This document shows positions 8,530 through 58,361 of a DNA stretch of 64,000 nucleotides, piece by piece. The DNA comes from Desertivirga xinjiangensis (lineage in GTDB: Bacteria > Bacteroidota > Bacteroidia > Sphingobacteriales > Sphingobacteriaceae), in the NCBI RefSeq assembly GCF_024436435.1, contig NZ_JAFMZP010000002.1, positions 558,001 to 622,000 of the forward strand, read 5' to 3'. The position numbers and the translations under genes were made by a program. Position 1 is the first letter of the stretch. Every line of letters begins with the position of its first letter. Below the pieces are notes generated by a model, which saw only the letters and a list, made by a program, of their open reading frames with translations, ran no database searches and was not told the origin of the DNA.

Positions 8530-11500
8530 ATGATGCTAAATTGCTATATCAAAAAGAGCACTCTGGGGATCCTGTTGCTTTTTTCAGGCCTGATTGCCGT
8601 TAAAGCACAGCAGGCTGAACCAACTGCTGCCACAGGCGGCTTCAAGGAAACCAGAGATTCCCATAAAATAAGTGTTGTCGATGAGTTTGCCAAGCCGGTA
8701 AGCGGCGCTGCAGTATATTCAAAAGCTGGAAAGCTCCTGGGTACCACCGGAGCGGATGGGATTACAAATGTTAATGGGGCTGATGAAACCATTACGGTTC
8801 GTCTAGCCGGATATTATCCCAGAACGATCAGAAATATCAGGAATACTACTGTAAGATTGACCGTCGATTACCTTCAGTCTGCCGACTACACCAATGTTTT
8901 GTATGACAGGAAAGCGAACAAAGAGATCCTGGGTGCAGTATCGACCGTAAACAACAATCAGCTCAAGACAACTCCGACCTCTCTGTATTTAAATGCACTA
9001 ACCGGAAGGTTGCCGGGCTTTTATACTCAGGAAGTCAGAGGTTTTCGTTCTGCCAGAACAACACCGACAACCTACAACGATCTCGCAGGCTCCCTTCCAA
9101 GTGAAGCAACGCGGTATAGTTCGAATTTTACTGATAATTCGGAGATCAACTACAATTTAAGAGGCTTACAACCGGTGACTATAATAGATGGAGTCCAACG
9201 CGATATTTATTCGTTAGATCCTGAAAATATAGAATCAATATCGGTTTTGAAAGATGCACTTTCTACACTTTTGTTGGGCCAAAAAAGTTCACGTGGTGTC
9301 TTGCAAGTCACTACTAAAAAAGGAGTAGCTGGTCCGCCCAGGATTTCGTTTACAGCACAAACAGGTATCCAGAACCCGTTAAAAATTGCAAAGCCGCTAA
9401 ATGCTCACGAATACGCTTATCTATACAATGAGGCCCTGCAAAACTCCGGAAGGACGCCAGCTTTCACGGAGGCGGATTTCAACGCTTTTCGTTCCGGTGA
9501 TTCCCCTTATTTATATCCTAATGTAAACTGGTATGATGAGGTGCTGCGGGATGACGCGCCTATCATCAAATATAACTTAGGTGTTAATGGAGGAGGAAAA
9601 ACTGCCCGTTATGCTCTTTCTTTAAGCTATATGAATCAGGAAGGGATGTTTAAAAGCATTAGTGACCTAAATACGAACCTAAGCCTTGACCGTTATCTTA
9701 TCAACAGTTCAATAGATATAGATGTTGCTAAAAATTTTAATATAGGTTTGCAACTTTTCGGTAGAGTGCAGGACGGCAGGCAGCCTGGTGCCGGTACAAA
9801 CAACATTTTGGATGCCCTGCACTATACACCGAACTATGCATATCCGGTCTTTAACCCGGACGGCAGTTTCGGCGGATCTTCCTTATACACAACTAACCTC
9901 TATCAACAAGTTACAGAATCTGGATACTTATTAGATAATAACCGGGACTTGATGGGAAATTTGGACCTGAAGTATAAATTCGATCAGTGGCTTCCAGGTT
10001 TGTATGCAAATGCTAAGATTAACGTGACTGCAGCGTCTTCAAGCTTAGTTGACAGAAGCAGGCGGCAGCCTGTCCGTGATCTGAGTTATGATGCTTTAGG
10101 AAACCCGGTATACGCCCGCTATGGCCTCATCTCGGATCAGCCGAACTCCTTCGCGATAACCTCAACCACAAATTCGTTTTACGCTCAGGGAGCAATTGGC
10201 TACGATACTCGGATCGGTGATGATCACCAAATTGGAACCAAACTTTTTATTGATCAGCAAATTGCTAACTACCAGTTTGATTTGCCGGCTAAGTATACCA
10301 ATATAGCTGCGACCGGAAACTATAGCCTCAAAAATAAATATTTTGCTGAGGCTGCAGTGAATTATTCAGGATTCAATCGCTTTCAATCCGGCAATAGATT
10401 TGGACTATTCTATGCCTTTGGTTTAGGCTGGGATGTTGCCGGCGAAAGTTTTATCAGGGATAACATAAACTGGATCGATCAATTGAAGTTCAGAGCCACT
10501 TATGGACAAACCGGCAATACCAATGAAGGCGCACTGGGGTACTATTCATGGAGAGCTTCTTATGGCCAGGATGGAACCAATGGTTACGAGGTTGGCCCTC
10601 AATATGCATTTGTGAGTGGCCTGGTAGAAAGGGGGCTGGCAAATGTAAATGCAACGTGGGAAAAAGCCCGCAAGCTGAATGTAGGTTTAGATATGGCTTT
10701 CTTTAAGTCGCATTTCAAGGTTACTGCCGACTATTACCGTGACAAATATTTTGATTTGTTGCAGTCAAGAGGTTCATCGATCGAACTCATTGGTATGGGA
10801 TATCCCAATGAAAACATTGGTAAAAATCTCTACACAGGACAGGAACTCATGCTTACTTACCAGAATAATATCAACAGCTTTAATTATTTCATTACAGCGA
10901 ATGCTTCCAGGATGAAAACAGAGGTGTTGTACATGAATGAAATGCAGCAGAAGTATGCCTGGAATTATAGGACAGGTATGCCGGTTGGTCAAACTTTCGG
11001 TTACCTGGCCGACGGTTTGATACAGACTCAGGCAGAAGCAGATGCTGCGCCACGACTAGCCGGTACTAAAGTTTACCCGGGCGACATAAAACTGGTTGAC
11101 TTAAATGACGATGGGGTAATCAATATCTATGACCAGACAGCACTCGGCAATACCAAACCCATTATTTATTTCGGTACTACCTTAGGCTTCAATATCAGAG
11201 GTTTCGACTTGAGTGTGTTACTGCAAGGGGTTAAAAACCGGTCTTACCAACAAATTGATTACTCCTTCGGATCTAATGGCGATCGTCAGGGTTATGAATA
11301 TCTTTTAGGCAGATGGACACCGGAGACTGCGGCCACTGCCACTTATCCAAGACTGACCATAGGTGCTAACGGAAACAATACCCCATTCTTAAACAACTCC
11401 AGTTTTTGGACCCACTCAGGTGAGTATCTGCGTATCAGAAACTTAGATATAGGCTACACGCTACCTTTCAGTGTAACTAACCGCATTAAGGTAGCGGGTC

Positions 11501-13360: not shown

Positions 13361-16300
13361 ATGAAAAAAGTCTTATATATTATTTTATTGATTTTTTCAA
13401 TAGCTCCTGCTCTTGCTGTTGGTCAGTCTGTGGTAAGGGGTGTCGTGCGGGATGCCAGTGGGCCCTTGCCTGGTGTTACAATTACTGAAAAAGGGCTAAA
13501 GAATGTAGTCGTTACTGATGTGGCTGGTAAGTTTTCAATCTCTCTTAAAGGGGGAGGAATACTTGTCTTTACAAGTATAGGATACGTTTCCGTAGAAAAG
13601 AAAGTAAAAGCGGGTGACAATGTGGAGCTCACCTTACAATCCAGCAGTCAGGATCTTAACGAGGTGATGGTAGTGGGATTCGGAACGACCAAACGTATCA
13701 CAAATACAGGTGCGATCAGTTCTGTGAAAGGAGCCGATATTCGAAATATACCGACGTCCAGCGTCCAAAACGCAATGGCAGGGAGAGTATCCGGCTTTGT
13801 TTCTGTGCAACGTTCAGGCCAGCCTGGTCGCGATGCTTCCGACTTTTTTATCCGAGGAGTTAGCTCCTTAAATAGTGAAGGAAATCAGCCCCTAATCATC
13901 GTTGATGATATTGAGTATACTTATGCTCAGTTAGCTCAAATCAATGTCAATGAAATTGAGAGTATTTCCATCTTAAAAGATGCGTCTACAACAGCGATCT
14001 ATGGTATTAAGGGTGCAAACGGAGTTTTAGTAGTGAAGACCCGCCGTGGAACTAAGGGTGCGCCCAAAGTGAACGCACGATTTGAGTCGGGGGTGCAGAG
14101 TCCGGTTTCCCGCCTGAAATTTTTGGATTCGTATGAAACAGCGCTTTTGGTCAATGAAGCAAGAGTGAATGATGGCTTATCACCAACGTTCAGTGAGGCT
14201 GCATTAGAACATTTCAGACTGGGTGATGACCCCTATGGACATCCCAACGTAAACTGGTATGAAGAGATATTCAAGCCTTCAAGTATGCAATACAATAGTA
14301 ATGTTGATATTTCCGGGGGGACTGAATCGGTGAAATACTTCATCTCCGGCGGCGCTTTTACCCAGGACGGTAATCTTTATAATTTTGAGGACGAAGGTAA
14401 CCAGGTAGACAACAACTATTACTACAGGAGATTTAATATGCGCTCCAATCTGGACGTGCAGGCAACCAAATCTCTCAAATTAAGGTTAGATATGCGCGCT
14501 AACTTCGGTAAGATTAATACCCCCAGAGCAGGAAACATAGTGGGAGAGGTGTTTGACTTTTCCAAGATACATCCTTATTCTGCGCCGTTTTTAAATCCCA
14601 ACGGTTCTTACGCGTATGCAAGCGACACTCAAAATCTGTTGCCTACAATAAATGCCCGTCTGGCAACCGCTGGTTACAGGTTAGACAGGCGCAGCGACTT
14701 AAATATCCTGTTTGGTGCAACTCAGGAATTGGAAAGCATCACAAAAGGCTTGTCGTTCTCCGGCCGCATAGCCTATGCCGGGGTAGAATCTACCGTTCGC
14801 GATCAGGGCAGGGAAACCCCGCCATCATATCTTTACAATCCCAACAGCGATACATATGTACTGAATGGTACGAAGTATGTACTTGATAACTACACTTTGC
14901 GCGCAGAACAAGGTGATTATAACAATAGGGTAAACGTTCAGGCGTATTTTAATTACGCCCGCACCTTTGGTGATCATAGTTTGAATGGCTTATTGCTTTA
15001 TAACAGAGAATCGTATAAGGAAAAAGATGCATTTGTAGCAGCGAAAAACTGGATCCCTCAGAACTTTCAGGGGCTTACTTTCAGAACGGGATATGACTAC
15101 AAACAAAAGTTTTTAATAGACCTTACTGCAGCCTATAACGGTAGTGACCGTTTTAATGCCGACAAAAGGTACGGGCTTTTTCCTGCTGTTTCTGTGGGGT
15201 ATAATTTGGCTAAAGAAAACTTTTTCGACGAGAAGCTGAAGTTTATAGATCTCTTTAAACTGCGTGGCTCATTTGGAGAGGTAGGTTCGGATAGGGTTAG
15301 AGGAAATCAATATTTGTTTGACCAAACATATCAATCCGGAGGGCCTTATTCGTTCGGTGAGGTAAGTAAAGATGTGAACACGATTTATGAAGGCCCGCTG
15401 GGCAATAGTAACGTAACCTGGGAAAGGAGCAGGACCCTCGATATAGGCGCAGATATCAATTTGTTCAACAACAAGGTATCGGTGGTAACGGATTATTTCA
15501 ACACCTTAAGGTATAAGCAGCTGATCCCGTCAAACTCTTTGCCGCTAAATATCGGTGTTGGTATTTCGCCTACCAATATCGCGAAGGTGAGAACCAGGGG
15601 TATAGAACTCGAGTTAGGTTATAACGATAATATCGGTTCATTTAGTTATAACATCAAGGGGGTACTTACCTATTTCAAAAGCAAAATCTTATATATGGAT
15701 GAACCGGCACCAGCATATCCATGGCTAGCCAAAACCGGTTACCAGATTGATCAGCCCTTTGGCTTCTTATTCGATGGCTTTTATACGGAAGACAACATTG
15801 CTACAAGTGCTAAACCTAACACCAGCGTTGATATCGTGCCCGGCGATCTAAGATACAAAGATTTGAACCAGGACGGTGTGATTGACTTAAACGATATAAC
15901 AGCCATAGGCAAACCAAATACGCCTAATACTAGTTATGGTCTTACTCTTGGCGGTAATTTTAAAGGGTTTAGTTTTAACGTCTTGTTCCAGGGCACTACT
16001 GACTATTCCTTTTATGTTAAAGGCAATGGTATTGAACCGTTCCAAAGCCAGTTCCAGCCTATTCATCAGCAGCGCTGGACGCCGGCAACAGCCGCCTCCG
16101 CAAAATTTCCGCGTCTGTCTACTAACCCCACTAGCATAAACAGCCCCGGAGCTTATCTGTCTGACTTTTGGTTGATCGATGCAAATTATCTGAGACTAAA
16201 AACGGTGGAAGTCGGTTATCAACTGCCGCAAAAGTGGCTGCCAGCTAAAATGAATAATGCCAGGCTTTACCTGAGCGGTTACAACCTGCTGACCTGGACT

Positions 16301-52028: not shown

Positions 52029-55000
52029 ATGAAAAAAACCTTTATCACCCTCTTGATTTCCTTTATTACTATCAACAGCATCTTTGCACAAAAGACGGCA
52101 GATAAATACAAAGTACTGATAACAAAGATAGATTCATTAGCAATTAAAGGCTTACCAAAATCGGCTTTAGCCGAGATTGGTAAACTCGAAGATCTTGCCA
52201 GGAGAGAAAAGAACACCCCTCTGCAAATTAAAGCTACCATCTACCGCATAACTTTTATGTCGTACCTGGAGGAAACTGCACTTGAATCGATTATTGCACG
52301 ATTAAAAACAGATATCAACCTTACAGCCTATCCTGTCAGACCTGTTCTTGAATCCCTACTGGGGGAGCTTTATTGGCGTTACTACCAGAACAATCGTTAC
52401 CAGTTCAGTAAAAGGTCCATATTGGAGAAACCTGATGATGACTTTACCCGCTGGGATCTGAAGACGATCATCCGTGAAGTGTCCGTCTTGTATAAGGCCT
52501 CTTTAAAAGAAACAGAGAAGCTACAAAGAACGCCTCTTGAGGCACTGGAAGGCGTTCTAATCGGTGATACGACAACACGATATTTACGCCCTACATTGTA
52601 CGATCTGCTGGCCCATCGTGCACTTGATTTTTTCCTGCATGAAGAAGCTGATCTTCTTAAGCCTAAACAACCCTTTACTCTCAGAGATGCTAAATTATTT
52701 GCAGGCAGTCGTGATTTTATAAACAGCCCCATTATTTCTTCTGATACTTTATCTACAAGTTATCAGGGGCTTAAGCTTTTGCAGGACCTCAGCCAATTTC
52801 ATCTGAATAAAGCTAATAGCGCCGCACTTGCAGACGTAGATTTAAAGCGTCTGGAGTTTGTTTTCAGGAAATCGGTGCATACTGATAAAGACAGTCTTTA
52901 TGTAAGAAACTTAAGGGAGCGTATTAAAACGCTTCCAAAAAGCGAGATAATTGGCGACGCCTTGATTTTATTATCCCGGTATTACATGCAGAAGGATAGT
53001 CTTAAGCTGGCACTAAATTATGCTGAACAGGCAACATTGATAAAGTCAGGAAGCCTGGCTGAGAAGAATGGCCGGTCGCTGATTATGCAGATCAGACACA
53101 AGGAAATTTCAGTGGCTGCTGAAAATGTAAATCTGCCGGATAACCCTATTTTAGTTTTCCTCAACTATAAAAACATCCAGGAAGTAAAGTATAACCTTTA
53201 TAAATTGACCGACAAGCAATTCGCAGAGATCAGGAAACTTGATGAAAATTATGAAAGATGGGGCAGTACATCTGTAAGGCCTTCGAAGGCGTTATTGAAA
53301 TACCTCTCGGCTAAAAAGGGATACGCCCAAGCTCAGTTTAAGATTAAAGATCCGCTCGATTACCGCAAGCATACTACAGAGTTTGCTCTTAAACCCCTGA
53401 CGACCGGAAACTACTTATTATTAACAGGACTTCCAGGAGACGTAGACAGCTGTTTAAGCCTGCTGCAGTTCAAAGTTACTAAGCTAAGTTATACATCGAG
53501 AGTTACACCGTCGGGAGATATTGAAGTTAGAACGCTTAACCGCGAAACAGGAGAACCGCTAGCCCATGTTACTGTCAGTCTGAAACGGGTTGAATATAGT
53601 TCAGGGCAGAGAGCGGATGTTCTTCTTGGCTCGGGAAAAAGCGATAAAGAGGGTAAATTTACCTATTCTGGTATGAGCGGTAGTTTTGGACAGACAACTA
53701 TAAGTTTGTCTCTTGCCGATGACTCTTACAAAGATGAAGGACATTACTTATATGGAGTATTGAAGAGCAAATCATCACCGAAAGACGTAACCAGAACTAT
53801 ATTGTTTACCGACCGTCATGTTTATCGCCCTGGTCAGTCGGTATATTTTAAAGGGATAAAGCTTGTACAAACAGGGGCAAGTTCAAGTATTCTGGTGAAT
53901 GAACCCACCAAAGTTTATTTAAAAGATGCCAACGGAAAAGATATAAGCTCGGCAGAGCTGAAGACCAATGAGTTTGGTACATTCAGTGGCTCATTCATTC
54001 TTCCTCCAGGTAGCTTGAACGGCAGTTTTCGCATACATTCTGATAATGGTTCAAAGCCGTTTCAGGTTGAGGAATATAAACGGCCATCCTTTACAGTGGA
54101 GGTAGATGCAGTAAAAGAAAGTTACCGGTTGGATGATTCCGTGATGGTTAAAGGCCGGGTCGCTGCATTTTCCGGATACGGCCTGTCCCACGCGAATATT
54201 GCTTACCGGGTCGTCCGAAAAAGGACAAATCACCGCAGGTTTCATTACTATGGAAATCCAAACCCGGGCACTGAGATACTTTCTGATACCATCGAAACGA
54301 ATGGAAGCGGGGAGTTTACTGTCAGATTTAAGGCCCTGCCTGAAGAACTTCCTTCCCAGGAAAATATGGTATATAATTTTGAGATCAGTATTGACGCCAT
54401 GGATATGAGCGGTGAAACGCATTCCGCTTTCGCGAATGTAGCCGTTTCTGAGAAGGTCTATACCATCAATCTGCTCTTGCCTGAAAGATTACTTCCCGGG
54501 GATGAGAAAGAGGGAACAGTGAATTCGGGAAGCTTTAAGCCAGGCAAAGGACCGCTGTATATTGTCGATGGGCGTGTCTTCGAAGATTTTAAAAGTTTAG
54601 ATCCATCGGAGATCGCGGAAATTCAGGTGCTCAAAGACGCATCAACCACGGCGATTTACGGTTCACGTGGAGCAAGTGGTGTTGTTCTCATCACAACAAA
54701 AAATAAAAACGAAACGAATGTTTCTAAAGCTGACCCTTTCAAAGTTCCTATAGGTTTAAGTAATCTCAATAATCAAAATCTGGATGGTGAAGTAAAGGTG
54801 AAGGTATATAGCCTGAAGACTCCGGAAAGAACAACTATAAAACGTCTGTGGACTAGTCCCGACCTGCCTATTCTTTCAAAAGATGAATTTTCTCAGCTGT
54901 TTCCCTATTACGAATATAATAACGACCTTAAGTATAAAAGCTGGCCCGTGATAGCACTTGTGGCGGCCAGGCAGCAAAAATTAAATGGGGAAAAAAAAGA

Positions 55001-58000
55001 GTCTCTGGATCTGTCTTTTCTGAAAAATGAGAAAAGCGGAGTATATAAGATAGAAGTTTTTGCTACAAACCGCACAGGTGATACTTGTTCTGCGACGTAT
55101 TTTACCAGTCTGATCATACAACCAGATGTTCCGGCGAAATCCGAGGATTGGCTTATCCCGGTAAAGACGGTGGTAATTCCTGGTAAAGAAGCTGAATTCC
55201 TGGTTGGCACAGGTATACCAGGAAACATATTAATGGAAACCTATGAGGCAGATCAGCTACTTTCCTCGCAATGGTTGAAAATTGGGAACAAGCAGGAATT
55301 GGTTAAGGTTCCTGTAAACGTAGATAGCAAAAACTTGCGGTTTCAATTTATAACGGTCTTTCAGAACCGTATGATGAGTAGCTATCATGACGTTTCCCTA
55401 CGGAAATCAGCCAGGGACCTGGAGATTCGTTTTCTGACACATCGCGATAAATTGCTGCCGGGACAAAAAGAGCAGTGGAAGCTTCAGGTTAAAGCTAAAG
55501 ATAAGCAAGCCGCTGAAATGCTGGCCGGGCTTTACGATGCCTCGCTGGATGACGTTGCGCAGCCGGACTCATGGACCGCCAATTTGAGGTTTTCGGAGGA
55601 GGTACCAGGTTATTTTCGTTGGAATGGCGGCAACTTTGTGCAGCAAGCAAACAGCTTACCATTTAGGTACCAATATATCAATAGCTCGGTTTCAGAACGT
55701 AATTATGAGTCTCTTGATTTATTAGGATCCAGGCATTTCAGTGGATATAATGATGTTTATTTCGGTTATTTAACAAAGCTTACTTCTAAAGCTAAGCACG
55801 AAGCAGGAGCAAAAATGGTACCCGGTGATGCTGTATTAAATGAAGTAGCGGTTGTGGGTTACGGTACCCAGAGGAAACAGGACCTTACCGGGGCTGTCAG
55901 TTCAGTTACAGCGCCTGGGGAGGAAAAGAGTATTATGATCAGGGGAACCAGTTCAATTGTCGAAGACAACAGTGTCTATGATTTTGCAGCAGTGCCTGCT
56001 CCCAAAAAAACAGAGACGGCCAGCATTCGAAAGAACTTCGCTGAAACAGCTTTTTTTTATCCGCACCTGCTTACCAACGAAAAAGGTGAAATCCTGATTG
56101 AATTTACAATTCCGGAGGCATTAACACGCTGGCGATTCAGGGCTTTTGCCCATACCAAAGACCTGCAGTCAGGTCATATTGAAACGGAGGTGGTTACACA
56201 AAAAGATTTGATGGTCTCGGCAAACACACCCAGGTTTTTCAGGGAGGGCGATACCATTAAACTATCTGCAAGAATAGCTAATTTAAGCAAGCGGCCAATC
56301 ACTGGAAAAGTGAAGCTGCAACTATTCAACGCGTTAAACATGCAGCCAGTAACCTTGTTGGTCAATGCCGGTGAGGCTGAACAAAATTTCGAGATAGGAA
56401 GCTCGCTTAATAAATCGGTTTCGTTTAAACTTGTTATACCTCCCGGCCTGGATGCCATTACTTATCGTTTAACTGCTGATGCCGGTAAGTTTAGTGATGG
56501 TGAGGAAAACACAATTCCAGTGTTACCCAACGCCATGGTGGTGACAGAGTCAATGCCTATGATGGTGCGGGCAGGCCAGACGAAGGACTTTACGTTTGAT
56601 AGATTGCTGAATAATACAAGCGAAACATTAGAGCATAAAACACTTACTTTGGAATACACATCCAATCCAGCCTGGTATGCTGTTCAGGCCTTGCCATACC
56701 TTATGGAGTTTCCTTACGAAGGTTCCGAACAGACCTTTAGTCGCGTTTTTGCCAATAGCCTGGCAAGTAATATTGTGAATAAGCATCCTCAGATTAAAAC
56801 AGTATTCGATCAATGGAAGAACCTTAACAGAGGTGCACTACTATCGAACCTGGAAAAAAACCAGGAACTTAAAGCGCTCCTGATAGAAGAAACTCCATGG
56901 CTGCAGCAGGCAGCCAACGAAGCGGAGCAGAAAAAACGGGTTGCTCTTTTGTTCGATCTAAACAAGATGGCTAATGAAATGCAATTGAATATTGAAAAAC
57001 TGCGTAAAATGCAGCGCTCTGACGGTGGGTTTCCCTGGTTTGCAGGATCCAACTACTCTGACAGATATATCACCCAACATATTCTGGCCGGGCTTGGGCA
57101 GTTGATGAATGTTAAAGCGGTACCAGATTCCAGGCTTTTGGAGGAAATTGGTAAGGAGGCTATGAAGTACCTGGACAATGAGATTGTACAGGATCATAAA
57201 GTAGCTTTAAATTATGAAAAGAAGCATAAGGTTAAGCTTAAGGAGTTATCATACATTACATTGCATGCCTTGTATGTTCGTTCTTATTTTCAGGACGAAC
57301 CGAAGTCTGCCCAATTGAAATTAGCTCTAAATTATTTCCTTCCAGTCCTTATCACAAGCTGGAAGTTCAAATCTGTTTATGAACAAGGACTCATGGCTGT
57401 CGTTATGCATAGAAATAAAGATATTGAAAATGCCAAAGCCGTAATCCGCTCGCTCATAGAAAGGGCCCGGCAATCTGATGAACTGGGGATGTATTGGCCG
57501 GAAAATAAGCTTGGATATTATTGGTATCAGTCGCCAATAGAAACCCAGGCCCTGCTGATTGAGTTTTTTACTGAAACCGGCGCCAGCCCGAAACATATCG
57601 ATGAAATGAAGATCTGGCTGCTAAGAAATAAACAAACTACAAACTGGAAAACAACTAAAGCTACAGCTCTGGCCTGTTATGCCCTTTTAATGCGTGGCGA
57701 CAACTGGTTAGCATCTCAGTCGCTGCCAGGCATCAGTCTTGGGTCAAAAACGTTGACCGATCTAAAACCAGGACTTAAAGCAGAAGCTGGATCCGGTTAT
57801 ATTAAAACCAGCTGGAAAGAAAGGGCGATAAAAACTGAACTGGGGAAGGTTAGTTTAAAAAATGATTCTAAGCTGGTAAACTGGGGAGCGCTACACTGGC
57901 AATACCTTGAACGCCTGGACAAGATCACCAGTGCAGAAACAGCCTTAAAACTTGAGCGCAAATACTTTATTCAGAAGCAAACTGATGCTGGTCCAGTATT

Positions 58001-58361
58001 AACTGCGATCGATAAAAACCATAAACCTAGGACAGGGGATCTGCTAAAAGTGGTGGTGTATCTGAACGCAGACAGGGATTATGAATACGTACAGCTGAAG
58101 GATATGCGTCCGTCAGGAACGGAGCCTGTGGATGTATTGTCTGGTTACAAGTATCAGGAAAGATTTTACTATTACCAGGTGACTAAAGACGTGTCAACAA
58201 ATTTCTTTATAAACAATCTTCCAAAGGGTAAATATGTATTTGAGTATCGCCTGAGGGTAGTGCAGTCAGGGAATTTCTCAACCGGGATCAGCAGCATACA
58301 ATGTTTATATGCCCCTGAATATAATGCTCACTCAGAAGGCGAGAGGATGGAGATTGATTAA
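52029..58361 (+). CDS. giant alpha-2-macroglobulin-like protein with embedded TonB-plug fragments
   Basis: The protein (about 2110 residues) is exported (MKKTFITLLISFITINSIFA, cut before Q). It contains an N-terminal helical/beta region, an MG2-type domain (about 588-690; TILFTDRHVYRPGQSVYFKG), the A2M core (about 1335-1430; ETAFFYPHLLTNEKGEILIE, PEALTRWRFRAFAHT), a helical thioester-domain equivalent (about 1560-1850) and a C-terminal receptor-binding-like part. At the thioester site PYEGSEQTF has Gly1565 where Cys is expected, so no thioester can form. Two pieces of a SusC-type plug are embedded in frame: residues 842-891 (PLYIVDG to VLITTK) and 1270-1310 (LNEVAVVGYGTQ to IMIRGTSSI). Their order is the reverse of that in transporters. 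ATG 52029 is preferred over TTG 52017. A role in envelope defence or protease inhibition is inferred from the family. Confidence 0.88.
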   Translation: MKKTFITLLISFITINSIFAQKTADKYKVLITKIDSLAIKGLPKSALAEIGKLEDLARREKNTPLQIKATIYRITFMSYLEETALESIIARLKTDINLTAYPVRPVLESLLGELYWRYYQNNRYQFSKRSILEKPDDDFTRWDLKTIIREVSVLYKASLKETEKLQRTPLEALEGVLIGDTTTRYLRPTLYDLLAHRALDFFLHEEADLLKPKQPFTLRDAKLFAGSRDFINSPIISSDTLSTSYQGLKLLQDLSQFHLNKANSAALADVDLKRLEFVFRKSVHTDKDSLYVRNLRERIKTLPKSEIIGDALILLSRYYMQKDSLKLALNYAEQATLIKSGSLAEKNGRSLIMQIRHKEISVAAENVNLPDNPILVFLNYKNIQEVKYNLYKLTDKQFAEIRKLDENYERWGSTSVRPSKALLKYLSAKKGYAQAQFKIKDPLDYRKHTTEFALKPLTTGNYLLLTGLPGDVDSCLSLLQFKVTKLSYTSRVTPSGDIEVRTLNRETGEPLAHVTVSLKRVEYSSGQRADVLLGSGKSDKEGKFTYSGMSGSFGQTTISLSLADDSYKDEGHYLYGVLKSKSSPKDVTRTILFTDRHVYRPGQSVYFKGIKLVQTGASSSILVNEPTKVYLKDANGKDISSAELKTNEFGTFSGSFILPPGSLNGSFRIHSDNGSKPFQVEEYKRPSFTVEVDAVKESYRLDDSVMVKGRVAAFSGYGLSHANIAYRVVRKRTNHRRFHYYGNPNPGTEILSDTIETNGSGEFTVRFKALPEELPSQENMVYNFEISIDAMDMSGETHSAFANVAVSEKVYTINLLLPERLLPGDEKEGTVNSGSFKPGKGPLYIVDGRVFEDFKSLDPSEIAEIQVLKDASTTAIYGSRGASGVVLITTKNKNETNVSKADPFKVPIGLSNLNNQNLDGEVKVKVYSLKTPERTTIKRLWTSPDLPILSKDEFSQLFPYYEYNNDLKYKSWPVIALVAARQQKLNGEKKESLDLSFLKNEKSGVYKIEVFATNRTGDTCSATYFTSLIIQPDVPAKSEDWLIPVKTVVIPGKEAEFLVGTGIPGNILMETYEADQLLSSQWLKIGNKQELVKVPVNVDSKNLRFQFITVFQNRMMSSYHDVSLRKSARDLEIRFLTHRDKLLPGQKEQWKLQVKAKDKQAAEMLAGLYDASLDDVAQPDSWTANLRFSEEVPGYFRWNGGNFVQQANSLPFRYQYINSSVSERNYESLDLLGSRHFSGYNDVYFGYLTKLTSKAKHEAGAKMVPGDAVLNEVAVVGYGTQRKQDLTGAVSSVTAPGEEKSIMIRGTSSIVEDNSVYDFAAVPAPKKTETASIRKNFAETAFFYPHLLTNEKGEILIEFTIPEALTRWRFRAFAHTKDLQSGHIETEVVTQKDLMVSANTPRFFREGDTIKLSARIANLSKRPITGKVKLQLFNALNMQPVTLLVNAGEAEQNFEIGSSLNKSVSFKLVIPPGLDAITYRLTADAGKFSDGEENTIPVLPNAMVVTESMPMMVRAGQTKDFTFDRLLNNTSETLEHKTLTLEYTSNPAWYAVQALPYLMEFPYEGSEQTFSRVFANSLASNIVNKHPQIKTVFDQWKNLNRGALLSNLEKNQELKALLIEETPWLQQAANEAEQKKRVALLFDLNKMANEMQLNIEKLRKMQRSDGGFPWFAGSNYSDRYITQHILAGLGQLMNVKAVPDSRLLEEIGKEAMKYLDNEIVQDHKVALNYEKKHKVKLKELSYITLHALYVRSYFQDEPKSAQLKLALNYFLPVLITSWKFKSVYEQGLMAVVMHRNKDIENAKAVIRSLIERARQSDELGMYWPENKLGYYWYQSPIETQALLIEFFTETGASPKHIDEMKIWLLRNKQTTNWKTTKATALACYALLMRGDNWLASQSLPGISLGSKTLTDLKPGLKAEAGSGYIKTSWKERAIKTELGKVSLKNDSKLVNWGALHWQYLERLDKITSAETALKLERKYFIQKQTDAGPVLTAIDKNHKPRTGDLLKVVVYLNADRDYEYVQLKDMRPSGTEPVDVLSGYKYQERFYYYQVTKDVSTNFFINNLPKGKYVFEYRLRVVQSGNFSTGISSIQCLYAPEYNAHSEGERMEID

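Follow-up and report, generated by a model that had tools for sequence, protein, structure and literature searches.

Bacterial alpha-2-macroglobulins (A2Ms) are regarded as protease traps of the periplasm that are triggered by cleavage of a bait region (PMC4498604), and MagD of Pseudomonas aeruginosa traps its protease without a covalent bond (PMC5764988). Here we describe an A2M-family protein encoded in a window of 64,000 nucleotides from Desertivirga xinjiangensis (contig NZ_JAFMZP010000002.1, positions 558,001 to 622,000), which carries two pieces of the plug of a SusC-type transporter in swapped order, and we compare its bait with those of its relatives. We lean towards the view that this bait imitates parts of the TonB import system of its own cell, namely the TonB box and plug of SusC and the linker of TonB, and that cutting it springs the trap on would-be attackers. 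Within the parts of the open-licence PubMed Central full texts covered, none was found that links a macroglobulin or bait region to TonB, SusC or a plug.

The features of the gene are listed below in window coordinates, with residues numbered from the ATG at 52029; the listed open reading frame (ORF) begins at TTG 52017.

52029..58361, + strand: A2M-family protein, 2,110 amino acids, counted from ATG 52029
53799..54041, + strand: MG2 domain, residues 591-671 (Pfam PF01835, E 1.3e-15)
54528..54710, + strand: displaced second half of a SusC plug, residues 834-894 (own SusC profile, Plug, TIGR04056, TIGR04057)
55155..55493, + strand: weak A2M_BRD match, residues 1043-1155 (17.7 bits, short of the cut-off of 22.7)
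55758..56018, + strand: bait region and flank, residues 1244-1330, borders approximate (human A2M alignment; hypervariability among relatives)
55842..55865, + strand: TonB-box motif EVAVVGYG, residues 1272-1279 (aligned to the SusC homologue 8aa4)
55866..55958, + strand: first half of the plug, residues 1280-1310 (QDLTGAVSSV by profile, IMIRGTSSI by eye)
55950..55994, + strand: TonB-linker-like segment SSIVEDNSVYDFAAV, residues 1308-1322 (own TonB: AAVVEDNSVHDFATI)
56046..56318, + strand: A2M core, residues 1340-1430 (Pfam PF00207, E 2e-21)
56721..56723, + strand: Gly1565 at the position of the thioester cysteine (PYEGSEQ, against PYECSEQ in L042 and other near relatives)
57945..58319, + strand: bacterial MG10 domain, residues 1973-2097 (Pfam PF17973, E 1.1e-29)

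The initial annotation had described a SusC plug split into two pieces that lie in frame, in swapped order and about 380 residues apart. Its residue numbers and coordinates are exact (residue 842 begins at 54552 and residue 1310 finishes at 55958), and the models applied agree with it. For the second half of the plug, placed at residues 842-891, Pfam Plug matches residues 840-885 with profile positions 56-107 (E 3.4e-5; 24.8 bits, cut-off 23.9), and the SusC signature TIGR04057 matches residues 861-891 (E 1.3e-15). Over the whole protein NCBIfam TIGR04056 (SusC/RagA) matches in two stretches (E 9.7e-31), the better one being residues 834-959 on model positions 146-273, while the bait stretch alone, with the TonB box and the beginning of the plug, places residues 1244-1294 on model positions 51-102 (E 7.2e-9). 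The order is swapped, because model position 146 onward precedes positions 51-102 in the protein. A profile of the SusC N terminus, built from nine SusC genes of the same genome (a diverged SusC at 8530 was omitted), recovers both pieces, at residues 834-894 (E 7.7e-18) and 1244-1294 (E 8.7e-9), and the second piece also aligns with residues 82-134 of the solved SusC homologue 8aa4 in a PDB sequence search (E 0.00017). The protein is not itself laid out as a SusC/RagA transporter, a plug and then a beta-barrel, and it scores 106.9 bits with TIGR04056 against a cut-off of 368.25.

The first piece lies in a loop of a later macroglobulin (MG) domain, probably the fourth counting from MG2. The loop at residues 834-894 is short in the other aligned relatives except L042, the homologue from a congener. 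There the two pieces co-occur in the same swapped order, at residues 886-938 and 1332-1427, with 52% and 69% identity to the window protein over the two matched stretches. Since the two-piece arrangement recurs in this congener, it is not a sequencing artefact. The displaced half was seen only in these two proteins. The third genome of the genus examined, G006 (locus L070), is without it, and in a number of relatives the second plug half is located inside the bait itself.

The second piece falls within the bait region. Residues 1327-1436 align to residues 725-834 of human A2M (6tav, PDB sequence search, E 0.023), and the human bait region is P690-T728 (PMC9352918), which puts the piece in the bait if the same numbering is assumed. 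Immediately ahead of the A2M core, the sequence is hypervariable among relatives, between flanks that are conserved in most rows shown, YDASLD-like upstream and R-NF-ETAFF-like downstream. The initial annotation was borne out in part: the pieces do resemble SusC, lie in frame and in swapped order, and recur in a congener. The bait site and its wide use of SusC-like sequence had escaped it. Judged from the sequences compared here, the swap matters less than this use of the bait and is one case of a bait patchwork.

Matches were found in 118 of the 121 family genomes searched, many of them transporters caught through the plug piece. The A2M stretches taken comprise 51 from the family, 26 named loci and at least 109 from a phylum-wide search (29 as loci, 80 fetched), the last being the new stretches among the matches listed. 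Three loci with no core match (L110, L112 and L145) were excluded, and seven near-duplicates among the 184 rows were removed before counting, which leaves 177 genes; this number, like that of the 69 long rows below, includes L096, where the longest ORF encodes an adjacent repeat protein and not the A2M. Near-full-length rows number 76 of the 184, and 179 extend at least about 490 residues upstream of the core; displaced pieces further upstream than that could escape notice in rows that are not near full length.

Many of the relatives' baits read as the N terminus of a SusC protein, with a CarboxypepD_reg domain, a TonB box and a plug. This N terminus is complete in the baits of L049, L082, L091 and L092, for example, and partial or shuffled in others. 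Across the 184 rows the SusC profile gave 73 matches within 330 residues before the core and two elsewhere, the latter in the window protein and L042. Counted without redundancy, 63 of the 177 genes have a match in the bait: 39 of 53 in the protein's own family (own genome included), 20 of 49 in the rest of the class, 2 of 54 in the rest of the phylum and 2 of 21 among the named loci. The same profile found 13 of 13 other SusC-type proteins and none of 561 shuffled proteins. A profile of the barrel, covering its first ~370 residues, matched none of the 184 rows; it found 12 of the 13 SusCs and likewise none of the 561 shuffled proteins. Curated Pfam and NCBIfam models, run on the 150 of 177 bait segments with the best-scoring cores, matched at E <= 0.01 in 58 (TIGR04056), 26 (TIGR04057), 43 (CarbopepD_reg_2) and 24 (Plug) cases. 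The genome of D. xinjiangensis encodes two further A2Ms. The bait of one (L082, C19:309500-318000) holds CarboxypepD_reg, TonB box and plug in order, and that of the other (L083) shows none of the three. This 5.5-Mb genome is very rich in TonB-dependent transporters, with 117 plug-domain matches, two of them in its A2M genes.

Seven short SusC motifs occur in the 177 baits far above their frequency in shuffled sequences and are rare in 423 other segments of near-full-length proteins, except for the loose IRG motif (16 of the 423). The TonB-box motif is the commonest: 45 of the 177 baits have it, whereas shuffles give 2.0, and 2 of the 423 other segments contain it. The three plug-half motifs match six times outside baits, each time in the displaced half of either the window protein or L042. 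The shuffles and the segments outside baits rule out a chance origin of the bait motifs. Where a bait has at least two motifs, their order is scrambled in 12 of 48 cases, one of which (L218) relies on a weak motif.

The SusC N terminus is not the only part of the import system that the baits resemble. Some baits have in common the non-SusC motifs EDNxVYDFASxE, GDPNAxxRIDEPVG and VDQVRFPPPVV, which are segments of the TonB linker, as in L235, the TonB of the window genome. The linker segments in common with L235 include VVEDNSVHDFATIE and, in L070, GDPNAEVRIDQPVG. A TonB-linker profile made from 18 TonBs matched 9 of the 184 rows (8 non-redundant), always in the bait, and none of the 561 shuffled proteins. 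We then scored 68 baits against 83 TonB linkers, with 200 shuffles per bait and one TonB per genome, taken as the best match to the TonB of the window genome; the set includes the near-copies L195 and L197 and two genes of G095. The TonB of the bait's own genome outscored all 200 shuffles in 31 of the 68 baits, and in these 31 it was the best or tied best of the 83 in 19 and strictly the best in 14. Of these 31 baits, 27 could be compared within their genus, and 12 of them matched their own TonB strictly best, against 3.9 expected with a random genome of the genus (P 5e-5); once L195 and L089 were left out, the figure was 12 of 25 against 3.75 (0 of 20,000 permutations). With neither the shuffle filter nor the near-copy L195, the own TonB came strictly first for 19 of 58 baits, where 7.9 were expected (0 of 20,000 permutations). 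As a control, 17 of 32 baits of near-full-length proteins passed the shuffle test, against 0 of 256 segments outside the bait. In an earlier run with 40 baits and 56 TonBs, since superseded, 23 of 40 passed, the own TonB was best or tied best in 14 of these 23, and the within-genus figure was 11 of 21, with 3.6 expected (P 5e-5); L050 passed the shuffle test in earlier runs and failed in the run with 68 baits. The window bait scores 55 with its own TonB, and its 200 shuffles reach 46 at most. The odd bait motif GSTKGVEG of one genus was found in the TonB linker of five of the seven genomes examined there.

A further recurrent bait motif, LYDELxDPxLRxEVE, was seen by eye in L080, L081 and L087 and partly in L045 and L066; its donor protein was not found. 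Relatives also contain frames of ~520-680 amino acids with a match to the TonB C terminus, for example G084:C348:4429-4794, which may be membrane proteins fused to TonB parts, another non-transporter user of them. M56/BlaR1 peptidases were considered as a donor of plug and linker pieces, and none was found in the window genome at E <= 0.001.

Codon comparisons indicate that the resemblance lies in the protein. Where a bait and its own TonB have identical residues, the codon is shared at 255 of 577 positions, with 246.4 expected from the codon usage of the gene (31 baits). The displaced plug half (834-894) agrees with the own SusC L121 in 33 of 57 residues, with 11 codons shared and 11.4 expected, and with L042 in 28 of 53 residues, with 12 codons shared and 9.5 expected. 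The segment LKDASTTAIYG, which the initial annotation had also noticed in the SusC gene at 13361, is indeed present there, and over 25 identical residues 7 codons are shared with that gene against 8.8 expected, which excludes it as a source of recent copying. Codon sharing is at chance level; the resemblance is therefore one of protein sequence, and recent copying of DNA from SusC or TonB is excluded. Synonymous sites look randomised while residues are kept, a pattern that, as far as sequences can tell, points to selection on the protein.

We propose that the bait acts as a protease decoy. The A2M would be exported, probably to the periplasm, with a bait resembling those parts of the cell's TonB and SusC that lie exposed and flexible in the periplasm. 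A protease capable of cutting those parts would attack the bait instead, and bait cleavage would spring the trap, as in other A2Ms. Because a glycine takes the place of the thioester cysteine, the window protein would have to trap non-covalently, as MagD does. In this protein and one congener the second plug half would have been relocated to the loop of another MG domain and its residues kept there. TonB degrades spontaneously in the absence of ExbB, and both trypsin and proteinase K cut it (PMC11658791). Extended to the Bacteroidota, the proposal becomes more tentative, at somewhat less than an even chance: self-mimicking baits would be assembled from those parts of the cell's own TonB and SusC that are vulnerable in the periplasm, and would evolve along with them, so that a protease disabling import is trapped first. 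If the baits do copy the cell's own TonB system, the bait sequence would reveal the protected target and allow a direct search for the proteases involved, and selection would be maintaining molecular self-mimicry in a region supposed to vary freely. By the domains tested the protein belongs to the A2Ms, and a self-mimicking bait would be new if its function is confirmed.

Several observations weigh against a self-mimicking bait. We know of no protease that cuts these baits. The SusC profile has no match in the bait of 114 of the 177 genes, and in the rest of the phylum it matches 2 of 54. The first 40 of the 68 baits in the TonB test were partly chosen as TonB-like, and one later genus was chosen for its odd motif; the pass rate is 22 of 40 in the partly picked baits and 9 of 28 in the remainder, and on those nine the within-genus test has no signal, the own TonB being strictly best in 1 of 7 where 0.5 would be expected. 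The test also takes baits as independent. The window protein's own TonB ranks 9th of 83 (with 3 ties) and 2nd of 3 in its genus, so by these scores its bait is a poor tracker of its own TonB. Finally, a motif that binds a partner would likewise be kept at the protein level.

This last point leads to docking, which we regard as unlikely: the TonB box and the TonB-like segment would recruit TonB, ExbD or SusC partners as binding motifs and not as lures, which would either station the trap beside the import machinery or expose the bait to pulling by TonB. The TonB box is the commonest bait motif (45 of 177), mutants of one SusC in this box lose function (PMC7782687), and partner motifs could also track the host's own TonB. 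However, some baits, such as those of L070 and L051, have linker or plug segments and no recognisable TonB box, the linker segments resemble TonB itself, which is not required of a TonB-binding motif, and the scrambled order in 12 of 48 baits also speaks against docking.

Still less probable is a tolerant slot, in which the bait takes nearly any sequence and passively gathers SusC-type coding DNA whose pieces have no function. Human A2M with a GGS-repeat bait does work once cleavage sites are restored (PMC9352918), and the 117 plug matches in the genome, two within A2M genes, fit this reading. A quick tree of 124 cores with several long branches requires 19 or more changes of the SusC label, against 41 when labels are shuffled, and at least 11 of the changes are forced by well-supported branches, which also suits a slot of this kind. 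Against it, the first part of the barrel has no match in any A2M, and SusC-like and own-TonB-like residues are kept despite chance-level codons, unlike what passive decay would leave. The suggestion of the initial annotation that residues 834-894 and 1244-1310 pack as one permuted plug in the window protein and its congener is the most doubtful: both species with the displaced half do retain both halves, but 43 profile positions (102-144) between them are confidently matched by neither (IMIRGTSSI having been seen by eye), the halves sit in different MG domains, the displaced half occurs in only 2 of 76 near-full-length rows, and a folded plug cannot be what relatives with shuffled or single motifs keep, as these cannot form one.

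Setting the bait aside, the protein is recognisably an A2M. MG2, the A2M core and bacterial MG10 are all above curated cut-offs and place it in the family, and a bait precedes the core by position, the A2M_BRD model itself staying below its cut-off. The N terminus looks signal-peptide-like by eye, and a regular-expression search found no lipobox. The CXEQ motif of thioester-containing type I A2Ms is replaced by PYEGSEQ, with Gly1565 in place of the cysteine. Near relatives such as L042 keep the cysteine, so on the alignment its loss is probably local to the window protein. The pattern C.EQ is present in 60 of the 69 long rows, the stray ORF L096 being among the nine others. CXEQ is lost here and there in the group, in the window protein, L072, L073, L078, L079, L090, L100 and L101; in L079 the cysteine is kept and the Q is gone. 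A Pfam scan of the six neighbouring proteins gave no PBP1c domain.

Compared with the described systems, the window protein shares linker segments with the TonB of its own genome (L235) and differs from it in having no Pfam TonB_C match. With SusC/RagA TonB-linked transporters (TIGR04056) it shares the N-terminal extension, the TonB box (VDEVVV is the putative one of Bt1763; PMC7782687) and plug segments, whereas the A2Ms have no barrel match and hold these pieces swapped, partial or shuffled within the A2M bait. It resembles type II bacterial A2Ms, of which MagD is an example, in being without CXEQ and differs from them in that near relatives such as L042 keep the cysteine; a mag-like operon was looked for only among the six neighbours of the gene. 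With type I bacterial A2Ms (ECAM/YfhM of Escherichia coli, SaA2M of Salmonella) it has in common the MG domains and the position of the bait ahead of the core, and most of its relatives keep CXEQ (60 of 69 long rows). It differs from them in having no thioester cysteine, no lipobox by regular expression and no PBP1c domain among its six neighbours, and in a bait assembled from look-alikes of SusC and TonB.

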